From: a virus
Virus record (IMG/VR): IMGVR_UViG_3300028008_001597
Coordinates: 1-31,882 of that record
DNA: 31,882 nucleotides
Direction: 5' to 3' (one strand)
The position numbers and the translations under genes are program-made. The notes under the pieces are model-generated. The model did no database searches, was not told where the DNA came from, and saw only the letters and a program-made list of their open reading frames with translations. Below, one piece after another: positions 6,230 through 31,882 of the stretch; within the stretch, counting starts at the first letter, position 1, and each line of letters starts with the position of its first letter.

Positions 6230-6254
6230 CAAAACACTTATTTGGTGTTATTAT
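6226..6254 (+). promoter_or_regulatory. Sigma70-like promoter for the nfu-like gene
   Basis: TTGACA (6226-6231), 17-base spacer, TATTAT (6249-6254). The -35 overlaps the iscU stop codon. Downstream is AGGAGA and the ATG at 6275. Confidence 0.7.
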
Positions 6255-6274
6255 TAATACTAATAGGAGAACTT

Positions 6275-6634
6275 ATGACTGAAAGACCATACGAAGATAT
6301 TGTTAAAAACATTACAGAAGTAATGGAACAATACGTAACACCGTCAGTACAGCAACATGGCGGAGAAGTTAACTTTGTTAGCTTTGAAAACGGTTGTGTA
6401 ACTGTACAACTTAGCGGAGCATGTTCAGGTTGTGCAGGTAGTACAATGACACTAAAACACGGCATTGAACAAATGATGACTCAACTTATACCAGAAGTAC
6501 TAAGTGTTGACGGTATTGATGATCCTTTTTCTACAGTTGATCCTTATTACATGCACGACCCATTTGGTGACGCACAGTTAGAATCAATTAGAATGTTAGA
6601 GGAATTAGATGAGCCTAATAATAGAGAAGTATAA
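6275..6634 (+). CDS. Nfu-type (NifU C-terminal domain) iron-sulfur carrier
   Basis: 119 residues from the ATG at 6275, chosen for its AGGAGA ribosome site; an upstream in-frame TTG at 6242 falls inside the promoter. Residues 10-80 form the NifU C-terminal fold with the cluster-binding C50-x-x-C53 in GACSGCAGSTMTLK. Such proteins carry [4Fe-4S] clusters to apo-proteins. A 40-residue acidic tail (DDPFSTVDPYYMHDPFGDAQ...) is extra and not recognised. It overlaps the next gene by 26 bases. Together with IscU it forms an Fe-S module. Confidence 0.9.
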   Translation: MTERPYEDIVKNITEVMEQYVTPSVQQHGGEVNFVSFENGCVTVQLSGACSGCAGSTMTLKHGIEQMMTQLIPEVLSVDGIDDPFSTVDPYYMHDPFGDAQLESIRMLEELDEPNNREV

Positions 6635-7292
6635 TTACGAAAAACTAAAGCGGGTAGAAGTAGATGGCAAGCGTAGATACGCAGCGCCAGGACATCCACC
6701 AGTAGCAAGTGTAACAACTATTCTTAGTGGTACTAAGGATATGAGTCATCTTATTGCTTGGAAGAAGCGTGTAGGTGAAAAGAAAGCACAAGAGATTGTA
6801 ACTGAAGCAAGTGGCGTAGGCACAAGGATGCACAAGTATCTAGAAGACTATGTTGACAATGGTGTGTGGACAGAGTCAGCAGGCAGCAATCCTTATGCAC
6901 AGCAAGCATACAAAATGGCATGTGTCATACGTGACGAAGCAATGGGCGATGTAGATGAGATATGGGGCAGTGAAGTTCCGCTTTATGTTCCAGGTATCTT
7001 TGCAGGCACAACCGACTTGGTAGGACAGTATAAGGGACAGCCTTGTATTATGGACTTCAAGCAAACTAACAAACCTAAGAAGCCTGAGTGGGTAGAAGAT
7101 TATTATCTACAACTTACAGCATACGCCTTAGGACACAACGAAGTACACGGCACAGACATACGTGAAGGACACATCTTTATGTGTAGTCGTGCATTAGAAT
7201 ATCAGCAGTTTGATCTATGGCCAGATGAGTTTGCAGAATGGGAACAAGAATGGTGGAATAGATGCAGACAATACTATGAGAAACATGGATAA
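6609..7292 (+). CDS. RecB-like PD-(D/E)xK exonuclease
   Basis: 227 residues. The motifs appear in order: a helix with His75 in GTRMHKYLE, Glu122, Asp136 in GTTDLVG, the D149-x-K151 pair in CIMDFKQTNK, and Gln168 in YYLQLTAYA. This is the arrangement of RecB/Cas4-family nucleases, which need Mg2+ and cut DNA ends. T4-like marine phages carry a similar nuclease, presumably for host DNA breakdown or recombination. It overlaps the nfu-like gene and shares TAATG with the small membrane gene after it. No 4-cysteine Fe-S cluster motif of the Cas4/AddB type is seen. Confidence 0.85.
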   Translation: MSLIIEKYNYEKLKRVEVDGKRRYAAPGHPPVASVTTILSGTKDMSHLIAWKKRVGEKKAQEIVTEASGVGTRMHKYLEDYVDNGVWTESAGSNPYAQQAYKMACVIRDEAMGDVDEIWGSEVPLYVPGIFAGTTDLVGQYKGQPCIMDFKQTNKPKKPEWVEDYYLQLTAYALGHNEVHGTDIREGHIFMCSRALEYQQFDLWPDEFAEWEQEWWNRCRQYYEKHG

Positions 7293-7396
7293 TGTGGGAT
7301 AAAATAAATGAATGGAGCATCAAAGCTCTTATCATATCAGGTATAATGATCTGGACAATCATATTTGCAGTGGCGTTTGTAGAATTCGCTTTGTAA
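7292..7396 (+). CDS. 34-residue single-span membrane peptide
   Basis: An ATG overlaps the stop of the nuclease gene (TAATG), giving MWDKINEWSIKAL followed by a hydrophobic helix of about 20 residues and ending VEFAL. It is short enough to be missed by automatic callers. The overlap suggests coupled translation. Function unknown. Confidence 0.5.
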   Translation: MWDKINEWSIKALIISGIMIWTIIFAVAFVEFAL

Positions 7397-7398
7397 CG

Positions 7399-7406
7399 GC
7401 TAAATA
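7399..7406 (+). promoter_or_regulatory. Late-type promoter variant (GCTAAATA)
   Basis: Six of eight bases match the late consensus TATAAATA; it lies 27 bases before the tail-fibre gene, which has a clear AGGAG. Confidence 0.35.
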
Positions 7407-7433
7407 TTACTATAATGAAATAGGAGTTATAGT

Positions 7434-9044
7434 ATGGCCGTAGTATCCATCAGTCGAATTCAAGTTCGCAGAGGACAAAAGAACACAGGTAGTGGATTAC
7501 CACAATTAGCAAGTGGTGAATTTGGCTGGGCTGTTGACTCGCAGGAACTGTACATTGGTAACGGTAGTGTAGCAGAAGGTGCGCCATTTGTTGGCAATAC
7601 TAAAATGCTAACTGAAACTGATAACTTGTTTGAATTTGCAAATACATATGAGTACCAAAGTGGTACCAACATGCAAACAGGCAGTTCTCCTAATAATCCA
7701 GTACTACGCACACTACAAGATAGATTAGATGACAGAGTGAGCATCCGTTCTTTTGGAGCAATGGGTGATGGCACAGATCAAGCGATACCACTACAACGTG
7801 CAATTGATCAGTTATACCTAAATGCAAGTAACAAAGGAACATCAGCAGCTCGTGTAGAACTTATACTAGAGCCTGGACAATATAATATTACTAATGGTCT
7901 TAAGATTCCTCCATTTACTACAATACGTGGAGCAGGTGCTGAGAAAACTATTATTATTGCTGGTCCATTTACTGCATTTGAAACATGCAATGAAACAAGT
8001 ACACCGGGTGTATATGCAAGCGATGCAACTAGTACAACACTTAATCAAGCAAGAAATATTACTATATCAGATCTAACAATTAGTTCAGAGGGTGCAGCAG
8101 CACTAAGTCTTGTAAGTTGTAAAGACAGTACGTTTGAAAACATAGTACTGAAAGGTCCGTATGCTTTAGGCGATGCAACTAATACAACTGACAATGGTAT
8201 TAAGATGACAGCATTAAGTACCGCAGTTAACACATCTAATAACAAGTTTATTAATATTAAGATAGAAAACTTTATGACAGGTGTTAGATCAGACAACGAC
8301 ATCAAAGATAACATATGGACAAACTGTGAGTTTGATACAATGTATAAAGGATTTGCATTAGGTACTGAAACTATTTTAGGTACTAGTGGAATGTTAACAG
8401 GACCGATCAACAACACTATTACTAATTGTACCTTTAATGACATTTATCAACACAGTATTGAAATTGCAGCTGGTACAGATAATATTAGTAAAGATAATAA
8501 ATTTTACAGCGTAGGCAACGCTGGTGGCAACGCACTACTAAATGCTAGTTCAATTATTAAGTTTGTTGGCAAGCGAAACAAAAGTGAAGGTGATTGGTTC
8601 AAACGAAGCGAAGAACTAGGTTATAATGAAACATATAAGAACAACGTTTCGTACTCACCTGAAGTAGAAGGTCCTACGATTACAGACTTTAGTACAACAC
8701 ACCAAATAGCAATTAACCAATCAGGTGAATATACAAAACTATTTAGACTGCCAGCTGATACTACTAAAGCATATGAAATAGAATACATCTATAAAAGTAG
8801 TACAGTTCAAGCAACTAGAACAGGAACAATGACAGCAGTTGTTGATCCAGCAAACAATACTGTAGAGTTTGACGATGAGTACACATACACAGGTAATTCA
8901 ACGTTTTCACAGAACTTAAAATTCACAGCACAAAATTATGACGAAAATGGCGATTCTTTGGTTGACACAATAGCCATTATGATGTTAAACTTAACAAGTA
9001 GCGATAATGCTACTTTGTACTATAAGGTTAAAACTAAGTCATAA
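7434..9044 (+). CDS. Tail fibre/spike-like protein with beta-helix domain
   Basis: 536 residues. The N-terminus (VSISRIQVRRG...LASGEFGWAVDSQELYIGNG) matches the repeat domain found at the start of many phage tail fibres and in the major tropism determinant family. Residues about 98-125 (VSIRSFGAMGDGTDQAIPLQRAID) carry the signature of a pectate-lyase-like right-handed beta-helix, and the Asn/Ser/Thr-rich body to about 400 fits the helix coils (NNKFINIKIENF..., NNTITNCTFNDI). The last 130 residues are beta-sandwich-like. It is probably a receptor-binding or baseplate-edge protein. Catalytic residues for polysaccharide cleavage cannot be assigned by eye. SD AGGAG; late-type promoter variant upstream. 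Confidence 0.8.
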   Translation: MAVVSISRIQVRRGQKNTGSGLPQLASGEFGWAVDSQELYIGNGSVAEGAPFVGNTKMLTETDNLFEFANTYEYQSGTNMQTGSSPNNPVLRTLQDRLDDRVSIRSFGAMGDGTDQAIPLQRAIDQLYLNASNKGTSAARVELILEPGQYNITNGLKIPPFTTIRGAGAEKTIIIAGPFTAFETCNETSTPGVYASDATSTTLNQARNITISDLTISSEGAAALSLVSCKDSTFENIVLKGPYALGDATNTTDNGIKMTALSTAVNTSNNKFINIKIENFMTGVRSDNDIKDNIWTNCEFDTMYKGFALGTETILGTSGMLTGPINNTITNCTFNDIYQHSIEIAAGTDNISKDNKFYSVGNAGGNALLNASSIIKFVGKRNKSEGDWFKRSEELGYNETYKNNVSYSPEVEGPTITDFSTTHQIAINQSGEYTKLFRLPADTTKAYEIEYIYKSSTVQATRTGTMTAVVDPANNTVEFDDEYTYTGNSTFSQNLKFTAQNYDENGDSLVDTIAIMMLNLTSSDNATLYYKVKTKS

Positions 9045-9047
9045 TTA

Positions 9048-9470
9048 ATGTTTGATAAAACTTATGAACAGCGACTGGTACTCTGGCGCGAGTTTCGAGA
9101 CTCTTTAGAAACTGCTCAGGATCCAATTCAAGACACGATTGATTTTTATAATCAAGCGCCTGTTGAGATAATTGCCGCAGATCCATATACTCCATCAACC
9201 TGGCCAGACCCGTGGGAACTGCTAGAGGAAAATAATTATTGTGCCTTTGTTAAGATACTTGCAATTTGTTACACCTTGCAGTTAACTGATGTTTTATCCC
9301 ATGGTACCTATGAGATACATATTACACGAGACAATGAAAACTCAGAGACTTATTACCTATTATTTGTCGACGACATTGTGATCGGTTTCAATGGAGAGAA
9401 GTATGTTAAGAAGAACGAATTACCCACCACTTTACGTTCTGAATTACAGCACTCACCACAAGCACAATAA
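9048..9470 (+). CDS. Conserved T4-like marine phage protein
   Basis: 140 residues, three bases after the fibre gene. The N-terminus is helical and acidic (LVLWREFRDSLETAQDPIQDTIDFY), followed by TWPDPWELLEENNYCAFVKILAICYTLQL and a small beta region (TYEIHITRDNENSETYYLLFVDD). From memory the WPDPWELL segment is widely kept in T4-like marine phages. No known activity. Position suggests it helps tail-fibre assembly or is a co-transcribed late gene. Confidence 0.7.
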   Translation: MFDKTYEQRLVLWREFRDSLETAQDPIQDTIDFYNQAPVEIIAADPYTPSTWPDPWELLEENNYCAFVKILAICYTLQLTDVLSHGTYEIHITRDNENSETYYLLFVDDIVIGFNGEKYVKKNELPTTLRSELQHSPQAQ

Positions 9471-9476
9471 TAAATA
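9469..9476 (+). promoter_or_regulatory. Late-type promoter candidate (AATAAATA) before nrdA
   Basis: Seven of eight bases match the late consensus, 26 bases before the nrdA start. The surroundings are very AT-rich, so chance is possible. Confidence 0.4.
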
Positions 9477-9502
9477 TTAAACACTAATAGACAGAGGTAA
9501 AA

Positions 9503-11806
9503 ATGGCAAATGGAACAATGATCACCAAGCGTGATGGTACTAAAGAACACTTAAATATCGACAAAATACATAAAGTAGTAGAACATGCTTGTGAAGGCTT
9601 AGCCGGAGTCAGTAGTAGTCAAATTGAAATGAGTGCAAACATACAATTTTATGATGGCATGACTACAAATGAAATACAAGAAGTACTTGTACGCTCAGCA
9701 AATGATCTAATTTCATTAGACACACCCAATTATCAATATGCGGCAGCAAGGCTGCTAAGTTACAGTGTAAACAAAATGGTATTCGGCGAATACAATGCAA
9801 TTACACTACAGAAAAACATTGAACGTAATATTGAACGTAACGTATATGATTCAAGTATATTGGACGTATACACAGCAGACGAAATTGCTACATTAGATAG
9901 TTACATTAAACATAAACGTGATGAGAACTTTACTTACGCAGGACTACGTCAAGTAGTTGACAAATATCTTTGTCAGGATCGTTCTTCAGGTGAAATATTT
10001 GAGACTCCCCAATTCATGTATATGATGATTGCTGCCACTTTGTTTGCGCAGTATCCAGCAGAAACACGTATGCATTACGTAAGGAGATACTACGATGCAA
10101 CTTCGCTATTTAGAGTTAATATTCCAACGCCAGTTATGGCCGGAGTGCGTACACCAGTACGTCAATTTGCTAGTTGTGTACTCGTTGACAGTAATGACAC
10201 TCTTGACTCCATTTTTGCTAGTGATATGTCTATCGGACGATATACCGCGCAGAGAGCGGGAATTGGTATCAATGCTGGACGTATACGCGGCGTTAACAGC
10301 AGAATCAGAGGCGGTGAAGTAGCACATACAGGTATTGTCCCGTTTCTAAAGAAGTTTGAATCAACAGTGCGTTGTTGTACACAAAATGGTGTGCGTGGCG
10401 GTAGTGCTACTACACACTTCCCTTTTTGGCATCAAGAGATTGAAGACATCCTTGTACTAAAGAACAACAAAGGTACAGAAGACAATCGTGTACGTAAATT
10501 AGATTATTCAATTCAACTTAACAAAACAATGTATGAAAGACTATTGACTGGCGGCGATATAACTCTTTTCTCGCCACATGATGTGCCAGGTCTTTACGAT
10601 GCATACTTTGGTGAGCCAGAGGCGTTCCAAGAACTTTATGAAAAGTATGAACGTGCTACAAGCATCAAGAAAAAGTCTATCCCAGCAATGGAATTATTTT
10701 CTGCGTTGATCAAAGAACGTGCAGAAACAGGACGCATTTATATTATGAATGTTGATCACTGTAACACACACAGCTCATTCAAAGACACAGTATACATGAG
10801 TAACTTGTGTCAAGAGATTACATTACCAACAAAGCCATTGGAGCATATAGACGACGAAGAAGGCGAAATTGCGCTATGTATTTTGTCTGCTATTAATGTA
10901 GGCACCATTCGTTCGTTAGACGACTTAGAAGACCTCTGTGAGCTTGCAGTACGTGCGCTAGAAGAGATTATTGACTATCAGAAGTATCCAATTAAGGCAG
11001 CAGAGATTAGTACAAAAGCAAGACGTTCATTGGGCGTAGGCTACATTGGTTTAGCACACTACCTAGCAAAACAAAAAGTAAACTATGCAGACAAAGAAGC
11101 ATGGAAACTAGTACATGATCTTAGTGAAGCATTCCAATATTACTTGTTAAAGGCCAGCAACAAATTAGCGCAGGAGAGAGGTGCTTGTGAGTACTTTAAC
11201 CGTACTAAATATAGTGATGGCATTCTGCCTATTGATACATACAAAACAGATGTTGACAGCATTGTGGAGAATAAATTAAACTATGATTGGGATAGTTTAC
11301 GATCTGACATTAAGGAACACGGACTTAGGCACAGCACATTGTCCGCACAAATGCCTTCGGAGAGCAGTTCCGTTGTGTCGAACGCAACAAATGGAATCGA
11401 ACCGCCTAGAGGTTACTTGTCCATTAAGAAAAGCAAAAAAGGGCCTCTTAAGCAGATTGTTCCACAGTATACTACACTAAAAAACAACTATACATTGCTT
11501 TGGGATATGCCAAGCAACGAAGGTTATATCAATGTAGTAGCAGTAATGCAGAAGTTCTTTGATCAAGCCATCAGTGGTAACTGGAGTTACAACCCAACAC
11601 ACTTTGAGAACAACGAAGTTCCAATGAGTGTGATGATGCAAGACTTGTTAAATACTTACAAGTATGGTTGGAAGACTAGTTATTACCAAAACACTTATGA
11701 TTATAAAACTGATCCAAGTGAACTAGAAGATGAAAAACCAGAAGAAGCATTAGCATCTTCAGACCTAATAGGCGAAGAAGAAGATTGCGATGCATGTGCA
11801 ATTTAA
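9503..11806 (+). CDS. nrdA: Class Ia ribonucleoside-diphosphate reductase, large subunit
   Basis: 767 residues, full length for the family (E. coli 761). It reduces ribonucleoside diphosphates to the deoxy form. An ATP-cone is present at the N-terminus (ITKRDGTKEHLNIDKIHKVV). Catalytic residues can be placed by motif: Cys225 (ASCVLVDS), Asn434, Cys436 and Glu438 (SNLCQEITLP), Cys459 (ALCILSAINVG), the Tyr-Tyr radical relay (SYYQNTY) near 727, and the C-terminal Cys762/Cys765 redox pair (DCDACAI). The pair has two residues between cysteines rather than the four of E. coli. It precedes nrdB and a glutaredoxin. Confidence 0.98.
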   Translation: MANGTMITKRDGTKEHLNIDKIHKVVEHACEGLAGVSSSQIEMSANIQFYDGMTTNEIQEVLVRSANDLISLDTPNYQYAAARLLSYSVNKMVFGEYNAITLQKNIERNIERNVYDSSILDVYTADEIATLDSYIKHKRDENFTYAGLRQVVDKYLCQDRSSGEIFETPQFMYMMIAATLFAQYPAETRMHYVRRYYDATSLFRVNIPTPVMAGVRTPVRQFASCVLVDSNDTLDSIFASDMSIGRYTAQRAGIGINAGRIRGVNSRIRGGEVAHTGIVPFLKKFESTVRCCTQNGVRGGSATTHFPFWHQEIEDILVLKNNKGTEDNRVRKLDYSIQLNKTMYERLLTGGDITLFSPHDVPGLYDAYFGEPEAFQELYEKYERATSIKKKSIPAMELFSALIKERAETGRIYIMNVDHCNTHSSFKDTVYMSNLCQEITLPTKPLEHIDDEEGEIALCILSAINVGTIRSLDDLEDLCELAVRALEEIIDYQKYPIKAAEISTKARRSLGVGYIGLAHYLAKQKVNYADKEAWKLVHDLSEAFQYYLLKASNKLAQERGACEYFNRTKYSDGILPIDTYKTDVDSIVENKLNYDWDSLRSDIKEHGLRHSTLSAQMPSESSSVVSNATNGIEPPRGYLSIKKSKKGPLKQIVPQYTTLKNNYTLLWDMPSNEGYINVVAVMQKFFDQAISGNWSYNPTHFENNEVPMSVMMQDLLNTYKYGWKTSYYQNTYDYKTDPSELEDEKPEEALASSDLIGEEEDCDACAI

Positions 11807-11809
11807 TGG

Positions 11810-11838
11810 TTGACTAAGTAGCGTATTTGCGTTACTAT
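11810..11838 (+). promoter_or_regulatory. Sigma70-like promoter for nrdB
   Basis: TTGACT (11810-11815), 17-base spacer, TACTAT (11833-11838) in the 64-base gap between nrdA and nrdB. The nrdB ribosome site is AGGAAG. Confidence 0.65.
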
Positions 11839-11870
11839 TATATAAGAGACACACAGAGATAGGAAGTAAG

Positions 11871-12974
11871 ATGGCGAAGACCGTATTTAATAAAGAAAAA
11901 GTAGATTTTACAAAACAGAACATGTTCTTCGGAGCAGATCAAAACACACAGCGTTATGATGTATTTAAGTTCCCAGTGTTTGATAAACTAAATCAAACAA
12001 TGCTAGGATACTTTTGGCGCCCGGAGGAAGTAAGTCTACAAAAAGACAGAGCAGACTTTGCTAACTTCCGTCCAGAGCAGAAACATATCTTTACTGCTAA
12101 CCTAAAATATCAAACACTACTTGACAGTGTCCAAGGACGTGGTCCATGCCTAGCATTTTTGCCGCATGTTTCACTTCCTGAACTAGAGGGCTGTATTGTT
12201 ACTTGGGACTTCTTTGAAACAATTCACTCACGTAGCTACACACATATTATGAAGAACGTGTACGCTGACCCGTCAGAAGTGTTTGACACTATTTTAGATG
12301 ACGAAAAGATTATTGCTCGTGCAACAAGTGTTACCAAACATTATGACGAGTTTACTGAAGCCGCTGATGCATTTAATCATAGAGGTGAAGGTAGTTCATA
12401 TGAAGTTAAGAAGAAACTTTATATGGCAATGATGACTGTAAACATCCTAGAAGGTTTACGCTTCTACGTATCATTTGCATGTACATTTGGTTTCGGCGAA
12501 CTAAAATTAATGGAAGGGTCTGCAAAGATTATCTCATTAATTGCTCGTGACGAAGCACAGCATCTAGCACTAAGCACACACGTATTGAAGTTGTGGGCAA
12601 ACGGCAAAGACGATCCAGAGATGGCTAAGATTGCTAAAGAGTGCGAAGAAGATGTATACGAACTGTGGCGCGAGTGTGTTCTAGAAGAAAAGGACTGGGC
12701 TGACTATCTATTTAAAGATGGATCAATGATTGGACTTAATGCTGCTCTGCTTAATCAATATGTAGAATATATTGCAAACCGCAGACTTAAAGCACTTGGC
12801 TTTAACGCAATCTTTGATCAGCCAGTAAACACTAACCCATTACCGTGGACACAACATTGGTTAAGTAGCTCAGGGCTACAAGTTGCTCCACAGGAAACAG
12901 AAGTTGAAAGTTATATCGTTGGCGGTATTAAACAAGATGTAACAACAGACTCTATTAAAGGATTCAGTCTATGA
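11871..12974 (+). CDS. nrdB: Class Ia ribonucleotide reductase, small (radical) subunit
   Basis: 367 residues, typical length. It makes the di-iron tyrosyl radical that drives NrdA. Ligands are visible: Asp85 (LLDSV), Glu116 and His119 with radical Tyr123 in FETIHSRSYTHI, Glu in NILEGLRFY (about 195) and the IARDEAQHL pair (Glu/His, about 230). The tyrosine is retained, so this is the classical tyrosyl-radical type. The C-terminal end (TDSIKGFSL) should dock NrdA. It overlaps the glutaredoxin gene by four bases. Confidence 0.98.
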   Translation: MAKTVFNKEKVDFTKQNMFFGADQNTQRYDVFKFPVFDKLNQTMLGYFWRPEEVSLQKDRADFANFRPEQKHIFTANLKYQTLLDSVQGRGPCLAFLPHVSLPELEGCIVTWDFFETIHSRSYTHIMKNVYADPSEVFDTILDDEKIIARATSVTKHYDEFTEAADAFNHRGEGSSYEVKKKLYMAMMTVNILEGLRFYVSFACTFGFGELKLMEGSAKIISLIARDEAQHLALSTHVLKLWANGKDDPEMAKIAKECEEDVYELWRECVLEEKDWADYLFKDGSMIGLNAALLNQYVEYIANRRLKALGFNAIFDQPVNTNPLPWTQHWLSSSGLQVAPQETEVESYIVGGIKQDVTTDSIKGFSL

Positions 12975-17314: not shown

Positions 17315-17610
17315 AGTGTGAAGCAGGTGATGTTGCAAAAATATTATTTTCAGTTAATCCTGCTAACATTGGTAGGATTGTACGGGTAGTTGAATACATT
17401 GGCGAGTTTACAGAACGTGAAAAGTTTCAATATAATGGAATGCCGTGTATGGCTCCAATCTCAGACAACTACTGGTGGATTGAAGCAGAAGACTTAACAA
17501 TACAACTAGGACCAAGTCCTCGTGCTTATATTGCTGACACATGGTTAGAGCCAATTAAGCCTGAAAAAGAATTTACTAGATCAAAAGCAGAGATTGAAAT
17601 AACAGTATGA
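17311..17610 (+). CDS. Conserved hypothetical protein
   Basis: 99 residues, beta-rich, with an SH3-like feel at the start (CEAGDVAKILFSVNPANIGRIVRVVEYIG) and a Trp/Tyr-rich segment (SDNYWWIEAEDL). Overlaps both neighbours by four bases (ATGA on each side). Precedes the halogenase. No catalytic motif; function unknown. Confidence 0.65.
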   Translation: MKCEAGDVAKILFSVNPANIGRIVRVVEYIGEFTEREKFQYNGMPCMAPISDNYWWIEAEDLTIQLGPSPRAYIADTWLEPIKPEKEFTRSKAEIEITV

Positions 17611-18983
17611 GCAAGTTGAACAGTGTTTGTATCTTTGGTGGAGGCAGTGCAGGCTGGTTAACAGCTCTTGCTTTGCGCACCTACTTACCTGAAGTACATA
17701 TTACAATTGCTATATCCAGCAAACACACAAACATAGGTGTTGGCGAAAGTACACAGCCAGACTTACTAGACCTATTAGCACATTGTAACATAGACATACA
17801 AGACTTTTGTAAGCAAGTTAGTGCTACACAAAAGAAAGGTATATATTACGCTAATTGGAATACTATTGGTACATACTTTTGGCATCCGTTTACTTCATTA
17901 ACAGAGACAGGTACTTACACAAGAGCGCATCACTATAATGTAATGCACAAGCGTGATCCAAACAACTATCCGCTTGAAGACTATTACAAGCGAGTGCATC
18001 CTGAGTACAAGGATTACGCACTACACATTGATGCAGACAAAATGGCACTATACTTGCGGAACGTTTTATCTAACTCTGTAGAGATAATTGACTTTGATGA
18101 TTATGTATTGCACGAAAGTAACAACAAAATAGATTGCATCACTGTAGACGGTAAAGATATTAAAAGTGACCTGTATGTAGACTGCACAGGATTTAGTAGA
18201 GTACTTGCAGATGCAATAGGTAATATTGAGACAGATGAATATGTAGGTAATGTCAATGCCGCATTGTTTGCACGTATACCTTATGGCAAAACTAAACCTA
18301 TACCTTATACTAAAGCAGACGCTTGGGGCAAAGGTTGGTGTTGGACTATTCCGTTAGAATCAAGGATAGGCAGTGGTTGTGTTTATAACACAGACTTTTG
18401 TAAGAAAGAAGAAGCAATAGATCATTTTATTGACTACTGGCAAGGTGCAATAACTAAAAAAGATATAAGGTCTGTTGAGTTTGAATCAGATAGTTTATTA
18501 GAGCCTTGGAAGTCAAATGTAGTAACAATAGGATTAAGTGCAGGATTTGTCGAACCATTAGAAGCTACAGGTATAAGTTGGTTTGTATTGTCAGCACAAA
18601 TGCTAGGATTAACATTGCGGAACAGATACTTTGATAGTGGTGTTAGAATGTCCTACAACGGATCCATGCGCGGCTTCATAGAAGATGTACAAGACTTTAT
18701 TGATGTACATTACGCACTAAGTCATCGTAACGATACAGAGTTTTGGAGATACCAAACTATACGAAAGAGACATCCTAGACTAGAAAAACGTTTAGAGATA
18801 TACAAACAACAGATGCCAAACAAGAATAATAGGCAAGGAAATATACCTTGGGCATTTAATGATGTGTCATGGATAGATATATTAACAGGTTACCACTTTG
18901 ACTTTGATGATCAATCTATACCAGATCATTTAATAAAAGAAATGGAAACAGAATTGCAAGAGGTAGCAAATGATCTTCTTTAA
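17607..18983 (+). CDS. Flavin-dependent tryptophan-halogenase-type enzyme
   Basis: 458 residues, slightly shorter than the bacterial ~510-540. FAD-binding GGGSAGW at 11-17, catalytic-lysine segment KKGIYYANW with Lys77 at the place of PrnA Lys79, the GWCWTIP motif at 244-250 (halogenase WxWxIP) and FVEPLEATG at 315-323 with the glutamate that assists lysine. All key residues look intact, so it should chlorinate or brominate a substrate using FADH2. The substrate is unknown. T4-like marine phages commonly carry halogenase homologues. It overlaps the next gene by 14 bases; the two are probably partners. Confidence 0.88.
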   Translation: MSKLNSVCIFGGGSAGWLTALALRTYLPEVHITIAISSKHTNIGVGESTQPDLLDLLAHCNIDIQDFCKQVSATQKKGIYYANWNTIGTYFWHPFTSLTETGTYTRAHHYNVMHKRDPNNYPLEDYYKRVHPEYKDYALHIDADKMALYLRNVLSNSVEIIDFDDYVLHESNNKIDCITVDGKDIKSDLYVDCTGFSRVLADAIGNIETDEYVGNVNAALFARIPYGKTKPIPYTKADAWGKGWCWTIPLESRIGSGCVYNTDFCKKEEAIDHFIDYWQGAITKKDIRSVEFESDSLLEPWKSNVVTIGLSAGFVEPLEATGISWFVLSAQMLGLTLRNRYFDSGVRMSYNGSMRGFIEDVQDFIDVHYALSHRNDTEFWRYQTIRKRHPRLEKRLEIYKQQMPNKNNRQGNIPWAFNDVSWIDILTGYHFDFDDQSIPDHLIKEMETELQEVANDLL

Positions 18984-20327: not shown

Positions 20328-20440
20328 ACGCATACTCACAAATGTAATACTTCTTTTGTACTTTTGGTGTATAGAAGAAAATCCAGAAATGGTCAGACTA
20401 AAAAAGAAAGGTGAACAAACTTCTATTATTGAAATAGAGG

Positions 20441-20471
20441 TTGACATCTAGTATTACTTGTGTTATAAATA
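20441..20471 (+). promoter_or_regulatory. Combined sigma70 and T4-late-type promoter for tmRNA
   Basis: TTGACA (20441-20446), 17-base spacer, TATAAA (20464-20469); extended to TATAAATA (20464-20471), it is also the exact T4 late consensus. It therefore could fire both early and late in infection. Confidence 0.7.
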
Positions 20472-20477
20472 GTATTG

Positions 20478-20750
20478 TAACGTTGAAGCAATTCAAACGA
20501 CGAGCTGGACTCGGGGGCGGTACCCGACAGCTCCACCATAAACACATTCTGGAAGATCAGGTTGTCCGACAGGTTGAAGGGTGTGTTTATGATGGGGCTG
20601 AACTAGGATCGACAGGCGGATTAGTAGAAGAGTGGAGTTGCCCGGATGTAAGCTCGGTTAACGCGAACAAACTTAATAATTGCAAACGCAAATTATTCAT
20701 TAGCAGCCTAGGCTGTTACGAGGTAGTTAGGCCTTGTTACCAAACATAGC
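20478..20750 (+). ncRNA. ssrA: Circularly permuted (two-piece) tmRNA
   Basis: tmRNA rescues stalled ribosomes and adds a degradation tag. The acceptor end comes first: T-arm TCGGG/CCCGA with a 7-base loop, then CAGCTCC-A-CCA ending at 20538. The 5' end of the mature tRNA-like part comes second: GGGGCTG at 20594-20600, pairing with CAGCTCC (one G-U), followed by the tmRNA-typical AACTAGGATCGACAGG. Between them ATAAACACA (20538-20546) pairs with TGTGTTTAT (20582-20590), bringing the ends together for excision. The tag frame begins at the resume codon GCA 20682 and encodes ANANYSLAA followed by TAG (20709-20711); the LAA end is the ClpXP degron. This split layout is known for alphaproteobacteria and some cyanobacteria. 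Outer boundaries are approximate. Confidence 0.9.
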
Positions 20751-20751
20751 A

Positions 20752-20779
20752 GGAAAGCACCTTCGGGTGCTTTCTTTTT
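20752..20779 (+). terminator. Rho-independent terminator of tmRNA
   Basis: AAAGCACC, a TTCG tetraloop and GGTGCTTT form a perfect 8-bp stem followed by CTTTTT. Confidence 0.92.
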
Positions 20780-20916: not shown

Positions 20917-21354
20917 ATGAAGAATTTATTATCGACAGTAGCCGTTATGGTTGCACTATCTACTCCTGCGTTTGCCGCAGACACTACAGTTGAAATGCTA
21001 AACAAGCGTGACGACGGAGCCAAAATGGTATACTCACAAGACATCACACGTATTGATGCAGGCGATACTGTTACTTGGACACCAAACTCCAAAGGACACA
21101 ATGTAGAATTTATTGCAGGTCCAGATGGTTGGAAAGCACCAAAGAAATCAAAACTTAGTAAAGAATATGCTTACACATTTGACACACCAGGCGTATACTT
21201 GTACCAGTGTACACCACACAAATCAATGGGTATGATTGCTATTGTAATTGTAGGTGAAGCAGATCCAAAAGTAGTAAAGGATCGATTAAAAGATGTCAAA
21301 GTAAAAGGCAAGTCAAAGAAAAAACTAAAAGCACTGTTGGCTGATCTAGGCTAA
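20917..21354 (+). CDS. Secreted pseudoazurin (type I copper protein)
   Basis: 145 residues with a clear signal peptide (MKNLLSTVAVMVALSTPAFA, cut before residue 21). The mature part is a cupredoxin: ligand His61 in KGHNVE, then C98-T-P-H101-K-S-M-G-M106, which is the pseudoazurin signature (CTPHYxMGM) rather than plastocyanin. It carries single electrons in the periplasm. A 30-residue Lys-rich tail (KVKGKSKKKLKALLADLG) extends it, as in pseudoazurins. Own promoter; three bases before a DoxX-like gene. Pseudoazurin in a phage is unusual. Confidence 0.93.
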   Translation: MKNLLSTVAVMVALSTPAFAADTTVEMLNKRDDGAKMVYSQDITRIDAGDTVTWTPNSKGHNVEFIAGPDGWKAPKKSKLSKEYAYTFDTPGVYLYQCTPHKSMGMIAIVIVGEADPKVVKDRLKDVKVKGKSKKKLKALLADLG

Positions 21355-24686: not shown

Positions 24687-25208
24687 ATGAAAACTTTAAT
24701 CACAGCAATTACAATGGTTCTTGCCGTTGTAACATCAGTTCAAGCAGCAGAAGCAAAAGGACTATTCACAACAGAAGAAAGACCAGAGATGTGGTGCCTA
24801 GCACAGAACATCTATTATGAAGCAAGAAGTAGTAACAGAGCAGACCGAATGGCTGTTGCTGACGTAGTAATGAATCGAGTAAAACATACTCACTACCCTA
24901 ATACAATTTGCGAAGTAGTACGACAAGGCAAACAAAAGCCTAGTTGGAAAGATCCTAATGTTATGGTAATGGTACGTCATAAGTGTCAATTCAGTTGGTA
25001 CTGTGACGGCAAAGCAGACGATCCACAAGATATGGATGCTTGGGTAGAAGCACAACAGATTGCATACAATATGCTTATTCACTTTGACGCTCGTGGCATT
25101 ACAGAAGGTTCAACTCATTATCATGCAAAATATGTATCACCCGAATGGGCAAGAGACTTTGCATTGGTTGGACGCATAGGAGAACACATTTTTTACCGGT
25201 GGGAATAA
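24687..25208 (+). CDS. SleB-type cell-wall hydrolase with signal peptide
   Basis: 173 residues; signal-like N-terminus (MKTLITAITMVLAVVTSVQA, cut before Ala21 or signal-anchor). The domain matches Hydrolase_2 (SleB/CwlJ): CLAQNIYYEARSSN with catalytic Glu45, then VADVVMNRV, TICEVVRQGKQ, CQFSWYCDG and STHYHAKYVSPEW. Likely the endolysin that degrades peptidoglycan for lysis, exported by the host Sec pathway. Holin-like genes lie upstream. Confidence 0.88.
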   Translation: MKTLITAITMVLAVVTSVQAAEAKGLFTTEERPEMWCLAQNIYYEARSSNRADRMAVADVVMNRVKHTHYPNTICEVVRQGKQKPSWKDPNVMVMVRHKCQFSWYCDGKADDPQDMDAWVEAQQIAYNMLIHFDARGITEGSTHYHAKYVSPEWARDFALVGRIGEHIFYRWE

Positions 25209-25250: not shown

Positions 25251-27521
25251 ATGATCTTTGGAATACTAACATTAATCACAGCATTGTGTATCAGTGCTGT
25301 GGCAATATACTACTCTGTCGCAGGACTCGTAGCTATATTCGCAGCCGCCGCAGTACCTATTATGATAATGGGCGGCACATTAGAAATAGCAAAACTTGTA
25401 ACCGCGGTGTGGTTACATAAGTACTGGGACCGTGCAACATGGTGGCTAAGAAGTTATCTTAGTGTTGCAGTAGTTGTACTCATGTTTATTACAAGCATGG
25501 GTATTTTTGGTTTCTTATCAAAAGCACACATTGAACAAACAAGTGCTAGTGAAGAAAGCATTGCAAGAGTTGAAAGTATTACAAGCGAAATTGATAGACA
25601 GAACGCTATTGTTACTCGTGCTAACACACGTATAGGACAACTAGAGAATAGTGAAACTGGTGCAGACGCAACAATACAAGCACAAATTGACAAAGAGCAA
25701 GGACGTATAGACTTAGCGTTTGAACGCATACAGCCTGCTATACAACAACAAAACCAAACTATTGCTGACGCAAGAGCAACAGATAGTACTCGTACTAAGC
25801 CATACGAAGATCAGCTTGCAAACATACAAGCAGAGGTCTTACGTTTGGAGCAAAGTGCAAGAGAGTATGAAGAAAAGATTAGCACACTTGAACAAGACAC
25901 AAGTGCAGTACAACCTTTACTTGATCAAATAGCCGCACTAGAAGAAGAAATTATCCGTGTTACTAATCAACTACAATCTAGTGAGCAAGGACAAATTAGA
26001 GCAGGACAAGCAATCATTGGTGTTACTAGCGATGGACTGTTTGGAGGCAACACACGTACCGCACTAGCAAAGTGGGTAGCAGGACAAAGATCACGTATTA
26101 ATCAAATACAAGGTGAAATAAGTGTAGCCCGTGTTGAAGCAAAGAAAACTGTAGACATGGAGCGTTTCCGTTTAGGCAATGTAATTAAAGACATACGCAC
26201 AGTACAGATACCTGCACTCAAAGAACGTGAGCTTACAATGCTTGCTAAGATTGACGATGTGCGCCAAACAGAATCTCCTGTTATACAAACAGCAAGAGAC
26301 GAAATACAAAGATTGCGTACAAGTGCTGAGTCGCAAGTAGCACAATCGCAAATACTAATTGAAAGACTACGTAGCCAACTAGGCGATGTAGACAATGCAA
26401 ATGAGTTAGAAGCAGACATTGACGCACAACAAGATCGCATCAAGGATGCTAACACAGAAATTGACACACTTACAGAAGAAAAAATAGCTCTAGAAGCAGA
26501 ATATCGCAAACTAGAAGCAGAAGTAGGACCTATTAAATACATTGCTGAGTTCGTATATGGCGAACAGGCAGACAGTAACATGCTCGAAGAAGCTGTACGT
26601 TGGGTAATAATTATTATTATCTTTGTGTTTGATCCGCTTGCCGTCCTACTGTTAATAGCCGCACAGTATACCTTTGATTTCCGTAGAAAAGAACTCGAAG
26701 ATGACGACGGTGAACGTCTTCGGCGTGAAAGAGCCGATTACGAACGAGCAAGAGCCCAGCGTATAATTGACAACATTCCTTATACTAATGCTACTCCTGC
26801 GCCACCTGCGGAACAAAAGGAAGAAATAAATGACGACGGAGACAACACCGGATCACAATCAAAAGTTGAAGGACCTAATGGGGAACCTGCCATTGGAGCC
26901 GAACAACCTGGAGGAACCATTGCCAACGGAATGGCTGTGGCCAGAGAAGACGACACTGGACAAGTGGAGCCAACCAAAGGAGAAATAGATGCAAGAGTGG
27001 ATCAACCTACAGACAGCGATATACAAGATGGTGATGTGGAACATAATGAACGAGATAGAGAAACCGATGATGAGGAAAGTCTATCAAGACGGAGCGATGT
27101 GGAACCTGCAGAAGAACAAGTTCCTGACAGTAGCGAAACCCAAGAAGGAACTACTGCCGAGCAGGACACCGGAGGAAGTGTTGGAGAGATACCGCACACC
27201 AAAAACGCAATTTTCTACCCAGAAGAACTAGAAGAGCCTAAAAAAAAAGTAAAATTAAAGTCACAGGAAGAATTAAACCTAGACGCTGATTACGAAGCAA
27301 AAGAAAAAGATGATGCTTGGGTAACTGCTCGTGCTATATGGGAAGCAAACAATCCAGACCAAGATAGAGATGCTTGGAAAAATGCATATTCAAAAAGTGA
27401 AATAGAATCATTACCGTGGGAACTATCTAATGAAGAAGATAACTACAATAGCAGTGAAGGTTATCAACAGAATGCAGAACAAAGCGAAAATACACTTTTC
27501 AATAAACTATCCAAAAAATAG
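25251..27521 (+). CDS. Large coiled-coil membrane protein, PG-binding-like insert, acidic tail
   Basis: 756 residues. Three hydrophobic spans at about 2-30, 32-50 and 66-88, then a long coiled coil (95-445) interrupted at about 251-275 by IIGVTSDGLFGGNTRTALAKW, which looks like a peptidoglycan-binding-1 repeat, a further span at about 450-473, and a 280-residue Glu/Asp/Ser/Pro-rich tail. Large coil-containing membrane proteins are known in T4-like marine phages; role unknown. A TAAATA element lies four bases before the ATG and no SD is visible. It could form a trans-envelope scaffold or modify the cell wall during infection (inference). Confidence 0.75.
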   Translation: MIFGILTLITALCISAVAIYYSVAGLVAIFAAAAVPIMIMGGTLEIAKLVTAVWLHKYWDRATWWLRSYLSVAVVVLMFITSMGIFGFLSKAHIEQTSASEESIARVESITSEIDRQNAIVTRANTRIGQLENSETGADATIQAQIDKEQGRIDLAFERIQPAIQQQNQTIADARATDSTRTKPYEDQLANIQAEVLRLEQSAREYEEKISTLEQDTSAVQPLLDQIAALEEEIIRVTNQLQSSEQGQIRAGQAIIGVTSDGLFGGNTRTALAKWVAGQRSRINQIQGEISVARVEAKKTVDMERFRLGNVIKDIRTVQIPALKERELTMLAKIDDVRQTESPVIQTARDEIQRLRTSAESQVAQSQILIERLRSQLGDVDNANELEADIDAQQDRIKDANTEIDTLTEEKIALEAEYRKLEAEVGPIKYIAEFVYGEQADSNMLEEAVRWVIIIIIFVFDPLAVLLLIAAQYTFDFRRKELEDDDGERLRRERADYERARAQRIIDNIPYTNATPAPPAEQKEEINDDGDNTGSQSKVEGPNGEPAIGAEQPGGTIANGMAVAREDDTGQVEPTKGEIDARVDQPTDSDIQDGDVEHNERDRETDDEESLSRRSDVEPAEEQVPDSSETQEGTTAEQDTGGSVGEIPHTKNAIFYPEELEEPKKKVKLKSQEELNLDADYEAKEKDDAWVTARAIWEANNPDQDRDAWKNAYSKSEIESLPWELSNEEDNYNSSEGYQQNAEQSENTLFNKLSKK

Positions 27522-28192: not shown

Positions 28193-29332
28193 ATGCGTAT
28201 CGAAGAAGATATTAAGTTAGACTACAAAGATGTTCTTATACGCCCAAAGCGTAGTACACTTAAATCACGTAAACAAGTAAAACTACATAGAAGCTTTACA
28301 TTTAGAAACTACGTTGCAGAATTTCCAGAGCAGGATGTTACTGAACATTACAACGGTGTACCTATTATGGCAAGTAATATGGATGGTGTTGGTACGTTTG
28401 AAATGGCTGATGCACTTGCTAGTCAAAACATCTTTACCTGTCTAGTTAAAACATATTCAGCAGATGAACTTATTGAGTTCTTTGATACTGACGACTATCT
28501 ACGTACTAATTATGTTGCAATGAGCATTGGCACTAGTGACGATGACTGGGGCAAATTGCAATCAGTAATGGCTATGGCAGATGGTAATTTAAAATTTGTT
28601 TGCATGGATATCGCTAACGGATATTCAGATCACTTTGCACAACATGTAAGAAAAGTACGTGAAGCATTTCCAAACTTAGTCATCATTGCAGGTAATGTTG
28701 TAACAAGAGAGATGACAGAGGAGTTGATATTAAGTGGAGCAGATATTGTTAAAGTTGGCATTGGGCCTGGTAGCGTTTGTACTACTCGTATTCAAACTGG
28801 TGTGGGATATCCGCAACTTAGCGCGGTCATCGAGTGCGCTGACGCCGCTCATGGTTTGGGTGGACACATTATTGCTGATGGTGGTTGTACTTGCCCTGGG
28901 GACGTGGCTAAAGCATTTGCAGGCGGAGCCGACTTTGTTATGCTTGGAGGCATGCTGGCTGGACATGATCAAGGCGGTGGTGAAATAATTGAAAAGTTTT
29001 ATGCAACAAATGAATTAGAATATGAAGTTGGCGAGCATTTAGACAATCGCAAACAAAAGGTAGAAAGAAAACAATTTGTGCAGTTCTACGGTATGAGTAG
29101 TGATGCTGCAAATACGAAACACTTTGGAGGATTGAAAGATTATCGATCTTCTGAAGGCAGGGAAGTTCTAGTACCATACAGGGGCTCTGTATCGGATACC
29201 GTGCAAGATTTACTCGGTGGTATTAGATCTACCTGCACTTATGCAGGCGCTAAGAAGTTAAAGCAACTTAGCAAATGCACAACATTTGTTCGTTGTACAC
29301 AACAATTTAATTCTGTGTACGCAAACAAGTGA
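28193..29332 (+). CDS. guaC: GMP reductase
   Basis: 379 residues (E. coli GuaC 347). GMP reductase turns GMP into IMP and ammonia with NADPH. The active-site loop [11 protein letters not shown] has Cys196 and Thr198, followed by [40 protein letters not shown] and the FYGMSS segment, which are GuaC-like rather than IMP dehydrogenase-like (no CBS domains, no RxxxG flap of GuaB). About 25 extra residues before FYGMSS (about 275-300) form a charged insertion. It follows bS21 in one unit. Lowering GMP relative to AMP would suit an AT-rich phage (inference). Confidence 0.93.
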
Positions 29333-29399: not shown

Positions 29400-29852
29400 A
29401 TGACAAGACTACAAACCCTCAACATTCCTAACCTACACAGAGCCAGTATCGGCTTTGATCAGATGTTTGACGAACTTGAAAGATCGTTCGCTAATACACC
29501 TAATAGTCAGGGATATCCCCCATACAACATAGCACAAATTAACGAAGACGAGTACATGATTAGTGTCGCCGTCGCTGGTTTTGGTATGGACAACTTAGAT
29601 ATTACTAAGGATGGGAAAATATTACGTATTGAAGGTACGTCACCTAAAGGAGATGAAGATGTTAATTACCTACACAAAGGGATTGGCGGACGCAACTTCC
29701 GTAGAGAGTTTACACTAGCAGATCACGTTGATGTAAAACAAGCAGGACTTGAACTAGGTATGCTTAATGTACATTTAGTGCGTGAACTACCAGAGGAACT
29801 ACAACCTAAGAAAATTGATATTACAGACCATTCATTAGTCGAAAATCAATAA
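29400..29852 (+). CDS. Small heat-shock protein Hsp20 (IbpA-like)
   Basis: 150 residues, strong AAGGAG. N-terminus with FDQMFDELERSF, alpha-crystallin domain about 40-135 (YNIAQINEDEYMISVAVAGFGMDNLDITKDGKILRIEGT..., GIGGRNFRREFTLADHV, AGLELGMLNVHLVRELPEE). The G-x-L motif appears as GMLNVHL. It holds unfolded proteins during infection or virion assembly; T4-like marine phages often carry one. The C-terminal I-x-I-like motif is KKIDITD. Confidence 0.93.
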   Translation: MTRLQTLNIPNLHRASIGFDQMFDELERSFANTPNSQGYPPYNIAQINEDEYMISVAVAGFGMDNLDITKDGKILRIEGTSPKGDEDVNYLHKGIGGRNFRREFTLADHVDVKQAGLELGMLNVHLVRELPEELQPKKIDITDHSLVENQ

Positions 29853-29899: not shown

Positions 29900-30208
29900 A
29901 TGACAGTTGATGCAGAAGTTGTAATTGACGAAAAGATTAAACGCATTGTTAAAGAACCGCCTAAGTATAATGTTATTATGCTGAACGACGATGCTACTCC
30001 AATGGAGTGGGTTATGGGTGTATTGAAAGAAATATTTAAACATAGTGACACAGACGCTGAAGCACTTACAATGAAGATTCATAACGAAGGTTCTGCTGTA
30101 GTAGGTACATATAAGTACGAAGTAGCAGAACAAAAGAGTATTGAAGCCGTAACTGCAAGTCGTAATCATGGCTTCCCTCTTCAATTAAAAATAGAAGAAG
30201 CAGAATGA
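29900..30208 (+). CDS. clpS: ClpS adaptor protein
   Basis: 102 residues. KYNVIMLNDDATPMEWVMGVLKEIFKHS is the ClpS core with the N-D-D/T-P-M-E motif that lines the N-degron pocket, followed by MKIHNEGSAVVGTYKYEVAEQK. ClpS binds ClpA and steers it to N-degron substrates and away from SsrA-tagged proteins. The N-terminal arm (VIDEKIKRIVKEP) needed for ClpA contact is present. It overlaps heme oxygenase by four bases. Confidence 0.9.
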   Translation: MTVDAEVVIDEKIKRIVKEPPKYNVIMLNDDATPMEWVMGVLKEIFKHSDTDAEALTMKIHNEGSAVVGTYKYEVAEQKSIEAVTASRNHGFPLQLKIEEAE

Positions 30209-30762
30209 GCAATTTAAAAGAATTAACTTGGGAACATCATAAAAATGCAGAGCGTCAAACCTTTGTAAAAGAGATGTTTGCAAAAGAACCACAAATAAGT
30301 CACGAACGGTATGCAACATACCTATTTAATCAACACCCGCAATATAACATGTTAGAAATGCTTGCTATGATGCAAGGACTATTTGATGGTATGCCTGAAC
30401 TACGCAGAGCACCATCAATACATGAAGACTATCAAGAGATGTGGGGAGAAGCAAATCCTAACCAACCTCCACTAATGCCAGTAGTAAAAGAATACATGGA
30501 CCACCTAATGAGTATCAAAGACGATCCTGATAAACTTATGGCACATGTTTATGTAAGACACATGGGCGACCTAAGTGGTGGACAGATGATTGCTAAACGT
30601 GTACCAGGTCAAGGACGCATGTACAAGTTTGATAAAGGTCATGACGAGCTTAAAGAAATAGTACGTTCAAAACTAAATGACAATATGGCAGATGAAGCAA
30701 AATTGTGCTTCGACTTTGCAACTAAGATGTTTGTACAATTAGGAGAGGCAAAAGAATCGTGA
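30205..30762 (+). CDS. Heme oxygenase
   Basis: 185 residues. Proximal-helix motif with H12-K-N-A-E16 (TWEHHKNAER) and distal-helix motif VRHM-G121-D-L-S-G-G126-Q that lies over heme. It opens heme to biliverdin, CO and iron using an electron donor. ATGA overlap with clpS and GTGA overlap with the bilin reductase gene show one operon, so biliverdin is likely the direct substrate of the next enzyme. Confidence 0.92.
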   Translation: MSNLKELTWEHHKNAERQTFVKEMFAKEPQISHERYATYLFNQHPQYNMLEMLAMMQGLFDGMPELRRAPSIHEDYQEMWGEANPNQPPLMPVVKEYMDHLMSIKDDPDKLMAHVYVRHMGDLSGGQMIAKRVPGQGRMYKFDKGHDELKEIVRSKLNDNMADEAKLCFDFATKMFVQLGEAKES

Positions 30763-31445
30763 GTGTAATTTGGGATAGACTAATAGAGTGTAAAGATGAA
30801 ATTATTAACATATTTGACGCAAGTGCAACAGAGTATCAAGAACCAGGGCTTGACCATTTTAATAATGATCTCTGGGTTAATCGCGTTTGGCGCAATGATG
30901 ATGTTAGGCGGGCTCACATTGATGTTGTAGATGCACGTGACTCTAAAGGGTTATGGATGATGCATGTATGCGTGTTTCCTGTACTTAACAATGACGGTCC
31001 TATATACGGCTTTGATGTTATTGCAGGTAAAAACAAAATGACAGGTGCATTCCACGACTTCTCAGCAAGTAGTGATCCTAACCATCCTATGATTGAAGGA
31101 TACAAAGAAGCAGTTGCAGACTTTGTTCCTAAAAAACAACGACAGCTACCAGAGTGGGCAACTAACATCTTTACAGATAAAATGCTTGCCGCTGGCAATG
31201 TAAACACAATAGAAGAAGCAGTTTCTATTATTGAACTTGCACAAGATAATCTACGTGCATACTTTGACGAGATCGGCGAGTTTACTGGATACGGCGACCG
31301 CGACTTAGTAACAGCATCGCAAAACTATTACTGTCATAATCAGCAACAAAATCCACATACTCCACGTACTATGAAAAGTTTAGGTCTAAACGAAGCTGAT
31401 GTAGATAAGTTCTGCACAGATATGTTGTTTCCTAAAATAGTATAA
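30759..31445 (+). CDS. pcyX: Ferredoxin-dependent bilin reductase, PcyX/PcyA type
   Basis: 228 residues from a GTG that overlaps the heme oxygenase stop. The core (LWVNRVWRNDDVRRAHIDVVDARDS..., MHVCVFPVLNNDGPIYGFDVIAGKNKM) is that of PcyA-family enzymes. His53 and Asp86 align by eye with PcyA His88 and Asp105; the place of PcyA Glu76 (ENR) reads VNR here. That loss and the phage setting fit PcyX, a subfamily described from marine viral metagenomes that makes phycoerythrobilin, rather than PcyA. Reduces biliverdin using ferredoxin. Subtype is by memory and eye alignment. Confidence 0.85.
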   Translation: MSVIWDRLIECKDEIINIFDASATEYQEPGLDHFNNDLWVNRVWRNDDVRRAHIDVVDARDSKGLWMMHVCVFPVLNNDGPIYGFDVIAGKNKMTGAFHDFSASSDPNHPMIEGYKEAVADFVPKKQRQLPEWATNIFTDKMLAAGNVNTIEEAVSIIELAQDNLRAYFDEIGEFTGYGDRDLVTASQNYYCHNQQQNPHTPRTMKSLGLNEADVDKFCTDMLFPKIV

Positions 31446-31467: not shown

Positions 31468-31882
31468 ATGCGTTACAGTGATTTTAAAATGGTCGAAGCA
31501 CCAGGTGATGAAGTTCCCGCAGCACAAATGGGCGGCGTAGAAGTTGGAACAGATAGTGTTGATCCTGCTGAGGTAGACGATTTACAAAAACAAATTGCTG
31601 ACAGAGTAATGAAGGTAGCTGATCCTGCTATTTTACACAGAGTAGAAGCTATCTTACGTAAGGGCGGCATTACTAGAATATCAAACGCATACTTCAAAAG
31701 AGACAGTGACGCAGAGAAGTTTATTAATAGACTAGCAACAATGATCATTGAGCTAGAAATACCTACAGCAGATAAAATGGCTTTCCTAAAAGAGTTTGCT
31801 ACAACAAATATGATCATTCCTGAAAAGATATTTGATAACTCAGGAACAGCACAATCAATGGACAGTTGGTTTCAAGGTAGCA
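31468..31882 (+). CDS. Head-type protein with capsid-targeting-like N-terminus, 3'-truncated
   Basis: Frame is open to the window end, at least 138 residues. It starts MRYSDFKMVEAPGDEVPAAQ, close to the T4 internal-protein start (YQEFIAEA), with M-V-E-A as a candidate cleavage site. The next part is helical (VDDLQKQIADRVMKVADPAI, AEKFINRLATMIIELEIPT). No catalytic motif. Has AGGAG and an exact late promoter. Function unknown beyond the likely head association. Confidence 0.75.
   Translation, partial: MRYSDFKMVEAPGDEVPAAQMGGVEVGTDSVDPAEVDDLQKQIADRVMKVADPAILHRVEAILRKGGITRISNAYFKRDSDAEKFINRLATMIIELEIPTADKMAFLKEFATTNMIIPEKIFDNSGTAQSMDSWFQGS

Follow-up and report, generated by a model that had tools for sequence, protein, structure and literature searches.

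Heme oxygenase and PcyX-type bilin reductase genes in a predicted marine jumbo phage related to PA5oct

Introduction

Why phages of bacteria that lack phycobilisomes should encode enzymes of phycobilin synthesis has been called enigmatic in the field (PMC11480375), and this question is raised by a locus in which a heme oxygenase gene (hemO) and the gene of a PcyX-type ferredoxin-dependent bilin reductase (FDBR), pcyX, lie next to each other at the end of a viral DNA stretch. This stretch, here called the window, is the entire sequence of 31,882 nucleotides analysed from the IMG/VR record IMGVR_UViG_3300028008_001597. Since the HemO-PcyX pair of phages, its product phycoerythrobilin (PEB), its link to alphaproteobacteria and pelagiphages and the AlaS cassette have already been published (PMC11480375, and references 6 and 16 therein), the core of the finding is known. 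What is new is the carrier, a separate and much larger lineage of jumbo phages unlike the pelagiphages, and a search of the openly licensed literature turned up no paper that connects PcyX with jumbo phages.

Results

The hemO-pcyX gene pair

The last two complete genes of the window form an operon-like pair:

30205-30762, + strand: hemO, heme oxygenase of 185 aa (PF01126, 1e-19; PDB heme oxygenases, 1.6e-11)
30759-31445, + strand: pcyX, ferredoxin-dependent bilin reductase of 228 aa with a GTG start (PF05996, 1.2e-13; 5OWG, 5e-78)

Two overlapping genes had been proposed here in an earlier note on this DNA, and the open reading frames, the PF01126 and PF05996 matches, the similarity to 5OWG and the omega values bear this out. 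The genes share 4 bases (GTGA) on the plus strand, both profile matches exceed the curated cut-offs, and with matches far past chance hemO and pcyX are real genes. Median omega across relatives was 0.137 for pcyX and 0.295 for hemO; purifying selection acts on both genes, and the constraint on PcyX is at least as strong as that on HemO. By profile, His, Asp and motif alike HemO belongs to the HO-1 family, with the proximal His12 and the distal Asp122 unvarying across 76 sequences and the GDLSGG motif present. Among solved structures the top relative of the pcyX product is PcyX_EBK42635 (5OWG, E=5e-78; 52% identity), with cyanobacterial PcyA far lower, a ranking that was repeated by a profile search.

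Alignment of the window's PcyX to the PcyA of Synechocystis and of P-SSM4 pairs His53 with His74, Asp55 with Glu76, His69 with His88 and Asp86 with Asp105. The earlier note had read a Val at the Glu76 place, a reading that we dropped because the alignment puts Asp55 there; it had also named His53 and Asp86 as the PcyA catalytic residues, of which Asp86 stands as the counterpart of Asp105, while His53 corresponds to His74 and the catalytic His is His69. The catalytic pair of PcyX is thus His69/Asp86. Asp55, His69 and Asp86 are unvarying across 82 PcyX sequences, and Asp55, which is replaced by Glu in the PcyA rows, is a PcyX signature that the window's protein carries.

An FDBR tree places the window's protein within the PcyX clade (UFBoot 93), as the note had anticipated in calling it PcyX-type. 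The tree was built without PebS, as a PebS-rooted version had low support and an odd placement of one sequence. Alphaproteobacterial PcyA is the sister of the PcyX clade (UFBoot 98), and an AX clade uniting alphaproteobacterial PcyA and phage PcyX has been described (PMC10151467). The PcyX of phage Mosig and 5OWG pair up (UFBoot 100; 84.5% identical), apart from the subclade of the window.

A bacterial origin of pcyX was considered and rejected: the 8 matches to pcyX in bacterial genome contigs comprise 4 alphaproteobacterial PcyA and 4 true PcyX, and all of the latter sit in the same phage neighbourhood as in the window. One of the contigs with a true PcyX, PBPT01000016.1 (L226-L242), is a 335-kb jumbo phage contig binned as a contamination in a Neomarinimicrobiota MAG, a binning that would make pcyX look bacterial.

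A near-fixed gene neighbourhood

Upstream of the pair lies a block of genes on the same strand, and downstream another protein begins:

24687-25208, + strand: cell-wall hydrolase/endolysin (PF07486, 2.6e-21)
25251-27521, + strand: probable membrane protein of 756 aa, with a conserved place upstream of this gene block (Mosig and other phages, most of them large, have partial homologues)
28193-29332, + strand: GuaB/GMP-reductase family protein (PF00478, 1.2e-68)
29400-29852, + strand: Hsp20 small heat-shock protein (PF00011, 2.2e-13; homologues in PA5oct and Phosso)
29900-30208, + strand: ClpS, Clp protease adaptor (PF02617, 1.8e-27)
31468-31881, + strand: beginning of a protein gene that follows pcyX and is truncated by the window end (open reading frame only)

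The 3' end of clpS runs into the start of hemO (ATGA overlap), and the 756-aa protein is 66% identical to its copy in a collinear 237-kb contig. IMG/VR contained 266 pattern-matching stretches encoding relatives, of which the best 80 were kept as loci. Among these best 80 of 266, loci with more than 2.5 kb of upstream sequence had hemO in 76/80, clpS in 75/80 and hsp20 in 75/80, and those with more than 4.5 kb had guaB in 69/74; hsp20 was present in 70/74 relatives. Of 78 loci in the same set, 73 have clpS adjoining hemO and 66 have hemO adjoining pcyX. The order GuaB-Hsp20-ClpS-HemO-PcyX is therefore near-fixed in the lineage.

In several loci a further gene separates hemO from pcyX and codes for a hydrolase resembling nitrilases, an enzyme resembling tryptophan halogenases or a 2OG-Fe oxygenase, and the gap between the two genes in relatives is an insertion hot spot. 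Nitrilase-like hydrolase or 2OG-Fe oxygenase genes lie there in L001 (6560-7357), L066 (9205-9999) and L060 (4914-5534), and halogenase-like genes in L061 (7537-9105) and L074 (8484-10004); the window has an enzyme of the latter family at a distance from the pair:

17607-18983, + strand: tryptophan-halogenase-family enzyme

Close to the 3' side of pcyX, 44 of 78 loci carry the curli secretion gene csgG (PF03783; e.g., L084 5214-6188). On two contigs of 14-33 kb (L009 and L019, both 10001-10693) a pcyX 82-87% identical to that of the window lies elsewhere, near a DNA polymerase gene and with no hemO found on these contigs, and seems to have relocated on its own.

The carrier is predicted to be a PA5oct-related jumbo phage

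Two long contigs are collinear with the window, one of 236,751 bases from IMG/VR (36 of 49 predicted genes) and one of 335,231 bases (39 of 49). Both have the T4-type core genes TerL, sheath and DNA polymerase, with portal and capsid found also in the larger one, and their TerLs are 82% identical. The TerL of the 335-kb contig is nearest to that of PA5oct (57%), followed by those of Sinorhizobium phage Phosso and Agrobacterium phage Atu_ph07. As the window itself is without TerL, it joins the PA5oct-like phages by way of these contigs, which exceed 200 kb and whose TerL and backbone are nearest to PA5oct. Part of this backbone is encoded in the window:

6609-12974, + strand: exonuclease, two further ORFs, RNR alpha and RNR beta (profile and tblastn matches to PA5oct, in the same order)

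The PA5oct backbone order of exonuclease, RNR alpha and RNR beta and, further on, Hsp20 and ClpS matches that of the window, and where a named phage has a ClpS matching that of the window, it is almost always a jumbo phage. Because of the contig collinearity, the TerL, the gene order of PA5oct and the ClpS matches, the window is predicted to be a stretch of roughly 32 kb from the genome of a T4-like marine jumbo phage akin to PA5oct. The long genomic context that the earlier note had valued in this window thus proved useful in revealing a jumbo-phage backbone that the note had missed.

Marine hemO-pcyX contigs were placed with pelagiphages by gp13 phylogeny, and the window might accordingly be thought to stem from another Mosig-like pelagimyophage, as was proposed for such contigs (PMC11480375). 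Mosig EXVC030M (MT647606), isolated on HTCC1062, likewise has hemO and pcyX with a short overlap, an alpha-type tmRNA, Hsp20 and RNR, and csgG near the cassette is a feature reported in pelagimyophages and Melnitz (PMC9004378). However, few genes are common to both overall, and Mosig differs in its gene neighbours, its cassette lying next to genes for 2OG oxygenases and the neck, as well as in genome size (141 kb versus more than 235 kb in the contigs) and in possessing its own 2Fe-2S ferredoxin. Its PcyX and HemO are 53% and 44% identical to those of the window, and TerL and MCP of the collinear 335-kb contig share only 32% and 33% identity with Mosig, compared with the 57% of TerL to PA5oct. 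By TerL, MCP and scant gene sharing a Mosig-like pelagiphage was ruled out for the lineage, and we consider it very unlikely for the window.

The host

Two features of the window bear on the host:

20425-20764, + strand: two-piece (permuted) tmRNA of the alphaproteobacterial type (RF01849, alpha_tmRNA, 85.8 bits; RF04321, 101.9 bits)
20917-21354, + strand: pseudoazurin-like blue copper protein (PDB pseudoazurin, 7e-25; PF00127, 1.3e-16)

Both had been named in the earlier note, and the Rfam model alpha_tmRNA and the top PDB matches agree with it. The tag of the tmRNA, as read off the sequence, is predicted to be ANANYSLAA; ARAGORN gave no tmRNA for the window, although the two Rfam models match. 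For comparison we used 28 phage records with HemO/PcyX, the window and Mosig among them. Five of the records were found via HemO, with pcyX checked in one of these five; all five enter the counts of tmRNA, psbA, ferredoxin, PHY/GAF, phycobiliprotein, NifU_N and 5-ALA synthase. The alpha_tmRNA model scored over its cut-off in 20 of the 28 records and in only one of 14 controls, Caulobacter, with cyanophage P-SSM2 below the cut-off; conversely, the psbA family was found in none of the 28 records, and P-SSM2 was positive. A BLAST search with the tmRNA for a possible host, confined to the order to which one MAG belongs, yielded no more than short matches to the tmRNA core in genomes other than the phage contig.

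The host is thus most likely an alphaproteobacterium, as far as the sequence can tell. Some alphaproteobacteria are anoxygenic phototrophs. Accordingly, the non-photosynthetic host supposed in the earlier note holds in that the host is probably no oxygenic phototroph, given the tmRNA and psbA counts, while it may still be an anoxygenic one. The tmRNA is good but not final evidence, because a tmRNA borne by a phage can persist after the phage has changed host, as in phage Melnitz (PMC9004378).

A cyanobacterial host, in which PEB would keep up the phycobilisomes, appears extremely improbable. Gene content is partly P-SSM2-like (RNR, halogenase, NifU, a blue copper protein and SNase), and the RNR is 70-71% identical to those of cyanophages. 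However, the tmRNA is of the alpha type, the window has pseudoazurin where P-SSM2 has plastocyanin, and the TerL of the lineage is nearest to PA5oct and not to cyanophages; the lack of psbA in the 28 records together with the alpha tmRNA led us to rule out a cyanophage.

Pathway, product and linked metabolism

HemO would open heme to yield Fe2+, CO and biliverdin IXalpha, and PcyX, with a ferredoxin as electron donor, would carry out a four-electron reduction of biliverdin, most likely to PEB, as judged from the characterised sister PcyX. With the predicted enzyme only 52% identical to that PcyX, the product could also be PCB or a mixture; the PcyA/X of freshwater CB_2 makes PCB, and Asp55 is missing there (PMC11480375). 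Selection constrains pcyX more tightly than hemO, which suggests that the pathway exists for the reduced bilin; PEB is likely its end product and not a by-product. Taken together, the enzyme pathway, the jumbo carrier and the host class can be put forward with good confidence.

A 5-ALA synthase gene was present in 10 of the 28 records, including both long contigs, where it lies 35 and 41 kb from pcyX. It was not found in the 32-kb window and, by collinearity, would be expected about 8-12 kb past the left edge. Since heme precursor supply and heme breakdown are thereby united in one phage, a net gain of iron is unlikely. A 2Fe-2S ferredoxin was found in none of 20 IMG/VR contigs and, among the phages searched, in Mosig only. 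The window further encodes an adjacent pair of genes for a phage Fe-S scaffold/carrier:

5810-6634, + strand: NifU_N (IscU-like) and NifU C-domain genes (PF01592, 1.2e-39; PF01106, 3.4e-24)

Of 27 related records, 7 carry NifU_N. None of the phage contigs showed a PHY, GAF or phycobiliprotein domain, though bilin-binding globins could elude these models; as most contigs are fragments, such absences weigh little.

Discussion

For the physiological role we tentatively favour a turnover of PEB and heme within a stress or redox module of the infected cell, and place it ahead of both the supply of a photoreceptor chromophore and the supply of iron, with part of the probability left to none of the three. 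In PA5oct the gene directly after ClpS, EST35_0261 (172979-173527; L249 9336-9884), annotated as hypothetical, encodes an Fe/Mn superoxide dismutase (PF02777, 1.2e-21), and in Vibrio jumbo phage 2.275.O an annotated Mn/Fe-SOD lies three genes past ClpS, which lends plausibility to a stress/redox locus but is no proof of it. This argument draws on where the SOD gene lies in two distant phages; four others, Phosso, Atu_ph07, BF and SCTP-2, have genes other than SOD in the slot after ClpS. More specifically, widespread marine PA5oct-like jumbo phages of alphaproteobacteria may have fixed the PEB pathway, fed by a phage 5-ALA synthase, at the Hsp20-ClpS locus of protein and oxidative stress, where relatives keep SOD, and PEB may serve redox protection or signalling; taken as a whole, this detailed version is doubtful.

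Somewhat less probable than the stress or redox role is that PEB or biliverdin loads a bacteriophytochrome or a bilin-binding globin of the host and shifts its light-dependent behaviour. PEB is not known to photoswitch in classical phytochromes, which speaks against this role, as does the lack of PHY, GAF or phycobiliprotein domains in the phage contigs. On the other hand, alphaproteobacterial PcyA and phage PcyX share one clade in our tree and in earlier work (PMC10151467), an island of Bradyrhizobium ORS278 ties hemO-pcyA-alaS to a phytochrome, and the PcyA of a phage from freshwater provides a phytochrome with its chromophore (PMC11480375). It is more unlikely still that HemO frees iron from host heme for phage RNR, IscU/NifU and 2OG oxygenases, with PcyX merely clearing biliverdin. 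An iron role has been discussed (PMC11480375) and would fit the Fe-S scaffold pair and RNR of the window, the NifU_N of related records and the several 2OG-Fe oxygenases next to the Mosig cassette. However, the 5-ALA synthase would rebuild heme, leaving no net iron, pcyX is more constrained than hemO, and some contigs have pcyX and no detectable hemO, these being fragments, some with their edge just upstream.

The cassette of marine phages (PcyX EBK42635; 5OWG) was reportedly described by Ledermann et al. in 2016 and 2018. It shares with the window the gene pair and its order, the PcyX clade, Asp55/His69/Asp86 and the alphaproteobacterial host inference; the window differs in a PcyX of a sister subclade, with a predicted product, and in its jumbo carrier. 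In the vAlaS cassette phages and CB_2 5-ALA synthase, HemO and PcyA/X share one genome, as a "broken cassette" (PMC11480375), and relatives of the window differ from the three-gene cassette in that 35-41 kb separate AlaS from the pair. PA5oct (Arenbergviridae), the Pseudomonas jumbo phage with the same backbone order and the top TerL match of the lineage, has superoxide dismutase after ClpS and no HemO-PcyX there, and its host is a gammaproteobacterium. HO/PebS of P-SSM2 and PcyA of P-SSM4 are likewise phage heme-to-bilin enzymes, but PebS is distant within the FDBRs, and P-SSM2 has psbA and further photosynthesis genes that are absent from the phages studied here.

The hemO-pcyX pair is therefore more than pelagiphage cargo, being near-fixed in a separate jumbo-phage lineage from many marine samples. 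The identified slot and the linked 5-ALA synthase narrow the hypotheses on its function towards product-directed synthesis and a stress or redox role. If the pair does occupy a stress locus, PEB would serve these phages in redox protection or signalling and not in light harvesting.
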